A stretch of 64,000 nucleotides of DNA from Monodelphis domestica (taxonomy: Eukaryota; Chordata; Mammalia; Didelphimorphia; Didelphidae), in NCBI RefSeq assembly GCF_027887165.1, contig NC_077232.1, forward strand, positions 16,627,255-16,691,254. Direction: 5' to 3'. The notes beneath the pieces were generated by a model that saw nothing but the letters and a program-made list of their open reading frames with translations, ran no database searches and was not told the origin of the DNA. Below, piece by piece: positions 6,907 to 49,722 of the stretch (position 1 is its first letter; every line of letters starts with the position of its first letter). Both the position numbers and the translations under genes were made by a program.

Positions 6907-7121
<215 letters not shown>

Positions 7122-7211
7122 TCTTCTTCTCTCCTTCTCCCCTCTCCTACCCTATCTTTTAACTCTAACCTTGTCAGCTCACAATCTGAAACATGCTCAG
7201 TTCTTTCACTA

Positions 7212-35400: not shown

Positions 35401-38400
35401 TCCTACTTTGTTTTCCAGAACTCTTCCCTTTTGGGCCACCCATTTCCTCCCAGTGTCACACCTGTTCTCAGCCCCATTCAGAGAGCACAGCTTCTAGGAG
35501 GAGCACAGGTAAGGCTGTGTGTGTCTATCCTTGTCTTGCTAGTTCAGGCTTCTCACTTTATTTTCTTTTTTTAATTTTTTTTAAACCCTTACCTTCCATC
35601 TGGAAATCAATACTATGTATTGGTTCCAAGGCAGAAGAGTGGTAAGGGCTAGGCAATGGGGATCAAGTGACTTGCCCAGGGTCACACAGCTGGGAAGTGT
35701 CTGAGGTCAGATTTGAACCCAGGACCTCACATCTCTAGGCTTAGCTCTCAATCCACTGAGCTACCCAGCTGCCCCCTCACTTTCTTTTCTAAGGAGATAC
35801 TATTTGGTTTTTGTTACTACTCAGTCACTGCTTAGCATATTCTCTGCTTTGCTTTTCCCAGTGAAGGTATCGATGAAGAGAATGTTGGCTCTTTGGTGGA
35901 TAGAAGTGTACTGATTGACCGGTATAAGGTCCTTTGTAGCTAAATTGAAGTTTTTGTCCCTTCTTGTGCCTGCAGCCTGGACGTATGTCTCCTAGCCAAT
36001 TTGCTCGTCTCTCCGGATTTGTGAGCAGTCCCCTTGCTTCCATGAATCCCAAGTTGCTTCAAGGACGGGTTGCGCAGATGATTCCCCAAGCTCCTGGCTT
36101 CCGTGCCTTCTTTGGCGCACCTCCACCAGCTACACCACCCCCAGCACAACAGCATCCCTCCTGCCCAGGACCTCACCTGCAAAACCTAAGGTAACTAAAA
36201 TATTTCATCTTGGTTGAGTATGTCACCATAGAATCTAGAAACCCCAGATTTGTAGCCTAGTAAGAGCTGATGAACCCCAAGTTTTAGGACTAGCTTCTAA
36301 GTTAAAGACCCAAAGTTTGTACTTGTTCCCTGTTCCTGTGAGAATCCATCCTGAAGGGCATCTCAGGCTTGCTATTTCAGACTAAAAAATGGACCCCAAG
36401 GTAAAGACAGTCCACTTGAGGTGGGGCTAAGCCCAAACTGAATGACTCTAGCACAGTAGGCAGTGCATCAGTCTCAAAAGCTGAAGGTCCCAAGTTCGAT
36501 CCTCAGAAGGAGGTTATGATATATTGGAAGAGGCTTCTGGAAACAAGGAGAATCAGTCGGTTTGGGCTTAGCCTCCACCTCAAGTGAATTGTCTTTACCT
36601 TGGGGTCCATTATTCAGTCTGAAACAGCTAGCCTGGGATTCCCTTCAGGGTGGATTCTCACAGGGACAGGGAACAAGTACAAACTTTGGGTCTTCAACTT
36701 AGAAGCTAGTCCTAAAACTTGGGGGTCATCAGATCTTACTAGGCTACAAGTTTGGGTTTTCCAAGTTCCATGTTGACAAGTATAACATATATATGAGCAT
36801 CAAAGATGCTCATTGCATTTTTCGGGGTTGAAAGGGTATAACAGTCTCACTTGCACTTAGGACTGTTTCTAGAATGAGAAATTTAGCCAGAAAAATACAT
36901 ACCCTTCTAGCACTTCACTTAAGTGTCAGGACTGCCTTTAGGAGATGAGTATGTGTGATTTAAACTGCCAGGGTCTTGCTTTTTGGGTGCTTTGATATCA
37001 CTTCACAACCAGGTCTCCTGAAGTAAATGAAGACTTATAACTCTGCCTTAAAATGATGTCCCCTTAGAAATGTGAACTAGTTAACCACCTATCAGCTGAG
37101 TGAAGAGCTTGCTGGAGAAATGACTAGCTGGACACAAGAGTACTTCCTATCACTTGGATGATTCAGGGAAGCTATTTTTGTTTTTTCCATAGACCTCCGT
37201 CCCAGATGTTTAGACCAGATACGACTCACCTTCACCCACAGCACCGTCGACTCTTACATCAGAGACAGCAACAGAATAGAAAGTGAGTACCAGGTTCTTC
37301 TGAATTTGGAGGATGTTAATAGAAGAGATATTTCTACTTTACACTGATTGTTTTGACACCTGGTGAAATGCTTTTGTGGACTTGGTTGATCAAATAACAA
37401 CAGAGATAGTACTAAAAATCATCACCCTGACATAGCAGTTTAAGCTTTACATAGTACATTACGTGTGCAAGCTCATTAGATACTTACAACTCTGTAAGGC
37501 AGGTGCTGTTGTTATCCCCATTTTTCAGATGAAGAAATTGAAGCAAACCAAGCTTGAATGACTGTCGAGGTCACATACCTAGTTGAGGCCAGGTTTTAAC
37601 TCAGACTTCCTGAAAAAAACCGTTTTTCTCTTTTGTGCATCTACAAAGAAAAGGAGGGGAAAGCATTGAGGAAAGGAGGAAGTCCAACATGTTCACCTGG
37701 ACAGTACAATATAGGACAGTAATATTGTTATTGGCCCAGGTATAAACATACCGTGGGGCATAGTGGGAGTGCTCATGGGTTCTGAGATCTGGGCTCAAAT
37801 GTTGGTTGCAGCACATTTTAGTTGTGTGACCAAAAAAGGCAGATCATTTAACCCCCAGAGACTCATTTTCCTCAATTACATAAGAATCTGATATTACTTA
37901 TGCCACCTACCTTGCAGAACTTTTGTAAGATGAGTGCTCTGAAAATCTTCAAGGACTCGTCTTCTCATAAGAGTGCTGAGCAAGAAATTGGATGAGCTTA
38001 GGAAATTTGTTCAGTTATTTGGAAGAAATATTCTTTGTAAATTTGAATTTTCAGAATTATCATTAAGTAGCATAAGCCTCATCTCTCATCTCCATAAGTC
38101 TTAGTACTAAACTGACATATCTGAGGCTTTTACACTGTTCACTGTTGGCTTAGCTCTGTTTCTGGCCTTTCTGGAACCTTGCTCACATGACTTTCATTTC
38201 TTCCTGCCTGCTGGATCTTTGTCACCTTCTTGCTTTCGCTGGAGTTTCCTTTCTTGCTGGCATTGCCATGGACCCAAAAGAACAAAGAGTATTATCTATA
38301 AAAGTGAATCTTCATTTATGCAAGTTCACATGTTACTTTCAAAACTACCCTGCTTTTCCATGCTCTCTTCTGAACTTTCTTCTGTTCCCTTCTGTGCATG

Positions 38401-49666: not shown

Positions 49667-49722
<56 letters not shown>

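Follow-up and report, generated by a model that had tools for sequence, protein, structure and literature searches.

The 558-bp palindrome at positions 36221–36778 of the window (the whole 64,000-nucleotide stretch of Monodelphis domestica contig NC_077232.1 analyzed here) is one copy of a large, non-autonomous, and widely spread element family. It has TG…CA ends, a flanking AGTA duplication, and a tRNA-Met-like center. The alignment of its two halves to each other begins exactly at the outer TG/CA ends and contains a single 1-base gap, with identity at 205 of 229 bases; the inverted arms of about 225 bp and the retroviral-type ends reported by the first-pass annotation were thus confirmed. 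The left arm (36221–36449, plus strand; TGTCACC…GACTCT) and the right arm (36549–36778, minus strand, ending in CA) represent the same LTR-like sequence, except that the left arm, throughout the family, lacks the final ~35 bp present in the right half. As the family comparison shows, these last ~35 bp of LTR-like sequence form an unpaired tail in the right half only (36514–36548, minus strand), and the tail end abutting the tRNA core reads …TATCACA in most copies and …TATCATA in the window copy. Because the flanks read TTGAGTA/TGTC on the left and GACA/AGTATAAC on the right, AGTA is duplicated (36217–36220 and 36779–36782, no strand assigned), as had been proposed.

The tRNA-Met-like core occupies 36449–36513 on the plus strand, as delimited by the Rfam tRNA model RF00005 and by tRNA-Met loci of the same genome. 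The RF00005 match covers 36449–36506 with 31.6 bits (cut-off, 29), in agreement with the annotated tRNA-Met-like center; ARAGORN called no tRNA gene within the window. On the same strand, the core contains an A-box-like stretch (TAGCACAGTAGG, 36449–36460) and a B-box-like stretch (GTTCGATCC, 36494–36502), both assigned by their fit to the Pol III box motifs. Folded as single-stranded DNA, 36221–36778 gave −220 kcal/mol, compared with −66 ± 5 kcal/mol for shuffled sequences (z = −29.7), and the predicted fold of the single-stranded element is one long hairpin. The host gene is PATL1, as annotated, judged from the similarity of one exon (at 51.7 kb) to PAT1 homolog 1 (PDB 2xeq, E = 1e-28); four exon translations had no match in Pfam. 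By eye, the element begins ~30 bp past the apparent 5′ splice site of a PATL1 exon (AAG/GTAACT; 36192–36221). The window also contains long (TC)n and (AC)n arrays (6912–7133 and 49669–49719).

The 558-bp element was used to search the 3.59-Gb assembly of the same genome (13 contigs), and the best 40 of 4083 first-look candidates, which are not to be equated with copies, were scored. All 40 places aligned over 518 to 558 of the 558 bases, and the 39 copies outside the window, dispersed over contigs C1 to C9, were 83–87% identical to the window copy. Perfect 4-bp duplications flanked 16 of the 37 copies with both ends aligned (L013, L027, and L038 were dropped from the best-scoring 40), compared with 0.19 expected from pairing left and right flanks of different copies, and 13 further copies matched at three of the four bases (2.4 expected). 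No perfect flank match of 3, 5, 6, 7, or 8 bp was found in these 37 copies. Two further sets gave perfect 4-bp duplications at 11 of 18 places and at 8 of 13, respectively (1 of 19 and 7 of 20 places were dropped for want of a usable end pair). As a property of the family, the duplication is therefore beyond chance, and its letters vary among copies. An integrase making cuts staggered by 4 bp leaves this signature.

The two arm–tRNA junctions are likewise common to the 40 copies. The left one is mostly GTGACTCTTTAG, and otherwise a small change of it; the right one is mostly AGGGTGTGAT, small later changes apart. The same two junctions in 40 copies indicate descent from one arrangement. In all, the element or some portion of it was read at 92 places, 51 of which hold complete palindromes. 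The first-pass annotation had left two options, an amplified non-autonomous class and a frozen reverse-transcription accident, and had proposed a search with the 558-bp sequence to separate them. That search, carried out in the same genome, returned many loci with the same junctions and different 4-bp duplications. The amplified class therefore holds; a single frozen accident is ruled out by the dispersed copies, all 40 scored places matching over at least 518 bases.

We then compared the arms within and between copies. In the 40-copy set, which consists of the best-matching of the 4083 candidates, the two arms of one copy were more alike (identity 0.898) than left–left (LL, 0.870), right–right (RR, 0.868), or left–right (LR, 0.868) pairs from different copies (0 of 5000 permutations). 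In the 51 complete palindromes, the within-copy value was again 0.898, against 0.860, 0.865, and 0.861 (0 of 10,000 permutations). Transversions taken alone pointed the same way. For 22 of the 80 arms, the partner was the closest of the 79 other arms, and for 33 it ranked among the closest three. A subfamily letter in one column was found in nine left and eight right arms, and in both arms of eight copies (1.8 expected). Ordinary DNA copying predicts that left arms are closest to other left arms and that arms within a copy are no closer than arms between copies; the data show the opposite. Judged from these comparisons, both arms seem to be renewed from one template at each insertion.

Many of the letters common to both arms probably predate insertion, since 177 of the 198 minority letters present in both arms of a copy can also be found in one or both arms of another copy, the other 21 being confined to their own copy. 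Identical runs between arms were slightly long (45.2 vs. 40.1; 5 of 40 copies at p < 0.05; Fisher p = 0.018), and this weak excess may leave room for some gene conversion after insertion. The corrected distance between arms is 0.139 in the window copy, and the family mean is 0.110. On the assumption that insertion started from identical arms, each arm of the window copy has accumulated ~0.07 changes per site; with the mammalian neutral rate assumed to be about 2.2e-9 per site and year, this would place the insertion at about 30 million years ago.

The tRNA core behaves differently from the arms. A tRNA-Met query was searched against the genome, and the best 40 of 571 candidates were scored and all inspected: 8 were armless tRNA-Met-like loci and 32 were family members, 4 of which were already among the copies from the element search, leaving 28 tRNA-selected places. 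Seven of the eight armless loci were called tRNA-Met by ARAGORN, and five matched the whole query at 90–99%. At tRNA position 39, all eight carry T (one of them, L094, is decayed), whereas the 87 readable element copies (four of the 92 places have no usable core, and one is gapped at this position) carry G (69 copies), A (15), or T (3). This shared G is the main reason to conclude that successive insertions did not each take a new tRNA copy from the cell. CCA is absent from the arm–tRNA junction in 40 of 40 copies, and this absence, together with the shared G, makes a fresh tRNA copy at each insertion unlikely. Nor does any of the 40 have a primer-binding site beginning with TGG; the inner end of the arm runs straight into the tRNA complement.

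The core also carries subfamily structure. Among 68 positions tested, 36506 is associated with one tail subfamily: A stands there in 9 of its 11 members, compared with 2 of the 29 remaining copies (p = 3.7e-5). Mantel tests correlated arms with tail (r = 0.35, p = 0.001), whereas the correlations of arms with tRNA (r = 0.14, p = 0.07) and of tail with tRNA (r = 0.07, p = 0.26) were weak, and we count these two against the scheme proposed below. RF00005 matched in 7 of 12 copies tested, and ARAGORN called tRNA genes in 7 of the 39 sister copies (L011, L017, L023, L029, L037, L043, and L045), with Met, Ser, and Thr anticodons (tRNA-Met in L017 and L029). Read from its sequence, the core, comprising tail and tRNA, is inherited from the founder.

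The tRNA-selected places also contained variant junctions. In 4 of the 28 (L083, L089, L091, and L093), the left junction keeps the 5′ end of tRNA-Met, GCCTTCTTAGC, which is also present in the four best tRNA-Met loci. On the right side, the LTR at the place matching this 5′ end reads GAGTGCCTCTTTTTGCC in L093 (right-arm motif GCCTCTT) and GAGTACCTCTTTTTGCC in L083 and L089 (ACCTCTT), so that at the supposed switch the LTR is near the tRNA 5′ end in L093 and one letter further from it in L083 and L089. In most window-type copies, GACTCTT stands on both the LTR and the tRNA side, and the palindrome looks as if it had grown inward over the tRNA acceptor. These variants bear on the earlier proposal that plus-strand DNA was copied through the whole tRNA primer, followed by a template switch: the four copies with GCCTTCTTAGC fit such a course, but a whole tRNA is not what the window copy contains, its 5′ acceptor being LTR-like and CCA being absent in 40 of 40 copies. 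A further variant, L095 (505–858; C9, near 64.1695 Mb), combines a different LTR body and inner junction with the same tRNA core and tail; its arms are nearly identical (98% over 60 bp and 100% over 22 bp), it looks young, and by eye it is flanked by a GTTC duplication.

Incomplete copies were examined for the position of their breaks. Among the 28 tRNA-selected places, 10 were complete, 8 had a break at element position 221–226 or 330–335, which are the bases of the hairpin loop, and 10 were broken or variant elsewhere. Five places selected by their LTR (L049, L053, L058, L061, and L062) also end near the loop base; breaks within a few bases of it were noted in these and in L081, L085, L087, L099, L104, L106, L107, and L110. 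Such breaks may be a trace of the hairpin. In the inspected one-armed copies, no perfect 4-bp duplication was seen by eye at the broken side (L081 matches at three of four bases). We therefore rejected one-armed copies as insertions of an unfolded molecule and leave them as deletions or single-ended events. In L055, a different tRNA-like repeat (Ile-like by eye) is nested inside an arm at ~940–1040.

To look for a parent provirus, the LTR alone was searched against the genome, and the best 40 of 3209 candidates were read (the window and 36 others were assigned by sequence, and three by their inverted partner). Neither a provirus nor a solo LTR with this LTR was found among these 40 places, which sets both aside as the main form of the family there; 39 carry the tRNA core or part of an inverted arm, and at the remaining one, L050, the element breaks in the tail, before the tRNA, so that its class cannot be told. 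No gag-pol internal region was seen at the 40 places, and the 3 kb beside 14 of the LTR places had scattered repeats in common but nothing that lay equally far from each LTR. LTR signals are scarce as well: of 40 copies, 2 contain AATAAA and 3 contain TATAAA, and the window arms have neither. A 20-base outer-end pattern had no match in the viral contig or genome contig collections. One locus, L070 (830–1035), holds a divergent, shorter, related LTR that ends in CACA and is followed by TGGTGCTGTGACTGAGG, without a tRNA core. This stretch, which we take to resemble the tRNA-His primer site, looks like a putative primer-binding site. L070 is a single locus, picked by a pattern demanding TGGTG after the LTR end; three of the four matches to that pattern had no similarity to the element, and none of the 25 best matches to L070 among the collected loci extends past the LTR end.

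Taken together, these observations lead us to propose, with only slightly more belief than doubt, that the family is a non-autonomous retroelement founded by LTR–tRNA read-through, amplified by fold-back, and inserted by an endogenous retrovirus (ERV)-type integrase. At its founding, retroviral plus-strand strong-stop DNA would have been extended through the LTR to the 5′ end of the tRNA-Met primer, and synthesis would then have continued on the LTR where the tRNA 5′ end GCCTTCTT resembles it, yielding LTR–tRNA–LTR. During amplification, each new copy would start from a single strand of one arm, the tail, and the tRNA, which would fold on its own inner LTR stretch and copy its arm into a second one; the arms would thus be identical at insertion and the core passed down. 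We infer the fold-back step because the arms are renewed and the core is inherited. The A- and B-box-like stretches, if they act as such, would allow a transcript that starts just before the tRNA. A 4-bp-duplicating integrase, for which the enzyme of a class I endogenous retrovirus is the simplest candidate, would then join the two identical outer ends, an integrase-type insertion being supported by the ends and the 4-bp duplications. Several points count against this scheme. A hairpin presents the integrase with a single end, and the scheme therefore calls for an additional step that yields a molecule with two ends. Recent priming by a tRNA would be expected to leave CCA behind, yet CCA is missing in 40 of 40 copies. 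The scarce LTR signals, the lack of a provirus among the 40 best LTR places, the poorer fit of L083 and L089 at the supposed switch, and the slightly long identical runs between arms weigh against the scheme as well. A bolder version, which we regard as tentative and rather doubtful, is that the palindrome itself replicates by self-primed fold-back as a self-perpetuating snap-back retroelement with a heritable captured tRNA and a borrowed integrase. If so, both arms would be renewed in every cycle, as a retrovirus renews its LTRs.

Other explanations account for parts of the data. Each palindrome might be formed anew, as a recurrent by-product, from a parent provirus with this LTR and a G39 tRNA-like leader: its strong-stop DNA would fold back or dimerize and be integrated as a dead end, and the next template would again be the provirus. 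Such a route accounts for arm renewal and the 4-bp duplications, and also for L095, where a new inner junction and a new LTR body accompany the same core; the lone related LTR of L070, followed by its putative primer-binding site, is in keeping with it. However, the 40 best LTR places include no provirus, and 39 of them have the tRNA core or part of an inverted arm; the 3 kb beside 14 LTR places share nothing at a constant distance; window-type junctions are the same in 40 copies, small changes apart; and L070 was chosen by its TGGTG, with 0 of 25 best matches continuing past the LTR end. We therefore consider recurrent formation unlikely. Gene conversion could instead have kept the arms alike in source copies and after insertion, while the palindrome as such was amplified vertically. 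The slightly long identical runs point in this direction, as do the 21 minority letters that are common to both arms of one copy and found in no other copy, but the run excess is small and 177 of the 198 both-arm letters recur elsewhere, which makes conversion as the main cause very unlikely.

A DNA-based origin was also considered. The element could be a small derivative of a Ginger-like, integrase-type DNA transposon with long terminal inverted repeats that caught a tRNA gene. Its TGTCA ends and non-specific 4-bp duplications fit Ginger elements, and scarce LTR signals and the lack of a retroviral parent among the 40 best LTR places are in line with it. Cut-and-paste transposition, however, keeps the two arm lineages separate, whereas here LL, RR, and LR pairs hardly differ in identity and all fall below the within-copy value; this comparison is a proxy, as gene conversion could mask separate lineages. 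In addition, the tRNA directly abuts the inner CA end of the LTR-like arm and is oriented as a primer would be. On balance, a Ginger-like origin appears distinctly unlikely. Local inverted duplication inside PATL1, which would explain why the two arms are inverted copies, is hardly conceivable, being refuted by the dispersed copies on C1–C9, many of which have their own 4-bp duplications.

The retroelement reading that we favor places the family near several known systems without making it identical to any of them. Like class I endogenous retroviruses (ERV1), it has TG…CA ends, a varied 4-bp duplication, and tRNA sequence by the inner LTR end; unlike them, its arms are inverted rather than direct (in the window copy and 51 complete copies), it has no coding region and no CCA, and its tRNA is inherited beyond the 18-nt primer site. 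Terminal-repeat retrotransposons in miniature (TRIMs) and other small non-autonomous LTR elements are similarly short and non-coding, with LTR-type ends and dependence on the enzymes of other elements, but TRIMs consist of two direct LTRs around a primer site and a polypurine tract, whereas here an arm is reversed around a tRNA. With tRNA-derived SINEs, the family shares high copy number and a tRNA-like part that matches RF00005 and has A- and B-box-like stretches. SINEs carry a tail and, being inserted by LINE machinery, are flanked by longer duplications; the element has TG…CA ends and 4-bp duplications instead of a 3′ tail and LINE-type sites. Ginger-type DNA transposons and palindromic MITEs also have TGT… ends, 4-bp duplications, and long inverted repeats, but differ from the element, in which the arms are renewed in each copy and a tRNA sits in primer position. 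In unintegrated retroviral DNA, LTR ends likewise touch in palindromic LTR–LTR junctions, which are products of circles or autointegration; the element, in contrast, is inserted, inherited, and amplified.

Among the literature matches listed (titles and abstract openings, with few subscription papers and no preprints), there was no description of inserted LTR–tRNA–LTR palindromes. The family may well be named in a repeat library such as Repbase or Dfam; relative to the literature searched, we have not seen stated either the composition of the element or the contrast between renewed arms and an inherited tRNA. Read-through of a primer tRNA and inverted LTRs are usually regarded as reverse-transcription products that lead nowhere. 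In this family, a structure of that kind seems to have been passed on, to have diversified into subfamilies with new junctions, and to have reached many places. That the arms are renewed while the core is inherited offers a direct, testable fingerprint of the mode of copying, so that a specific replication model becomes testable in any well-sequenced marsupial, and it would demonstrate that a mobile element can capture a primer tRNA and keep it as a heritable component.
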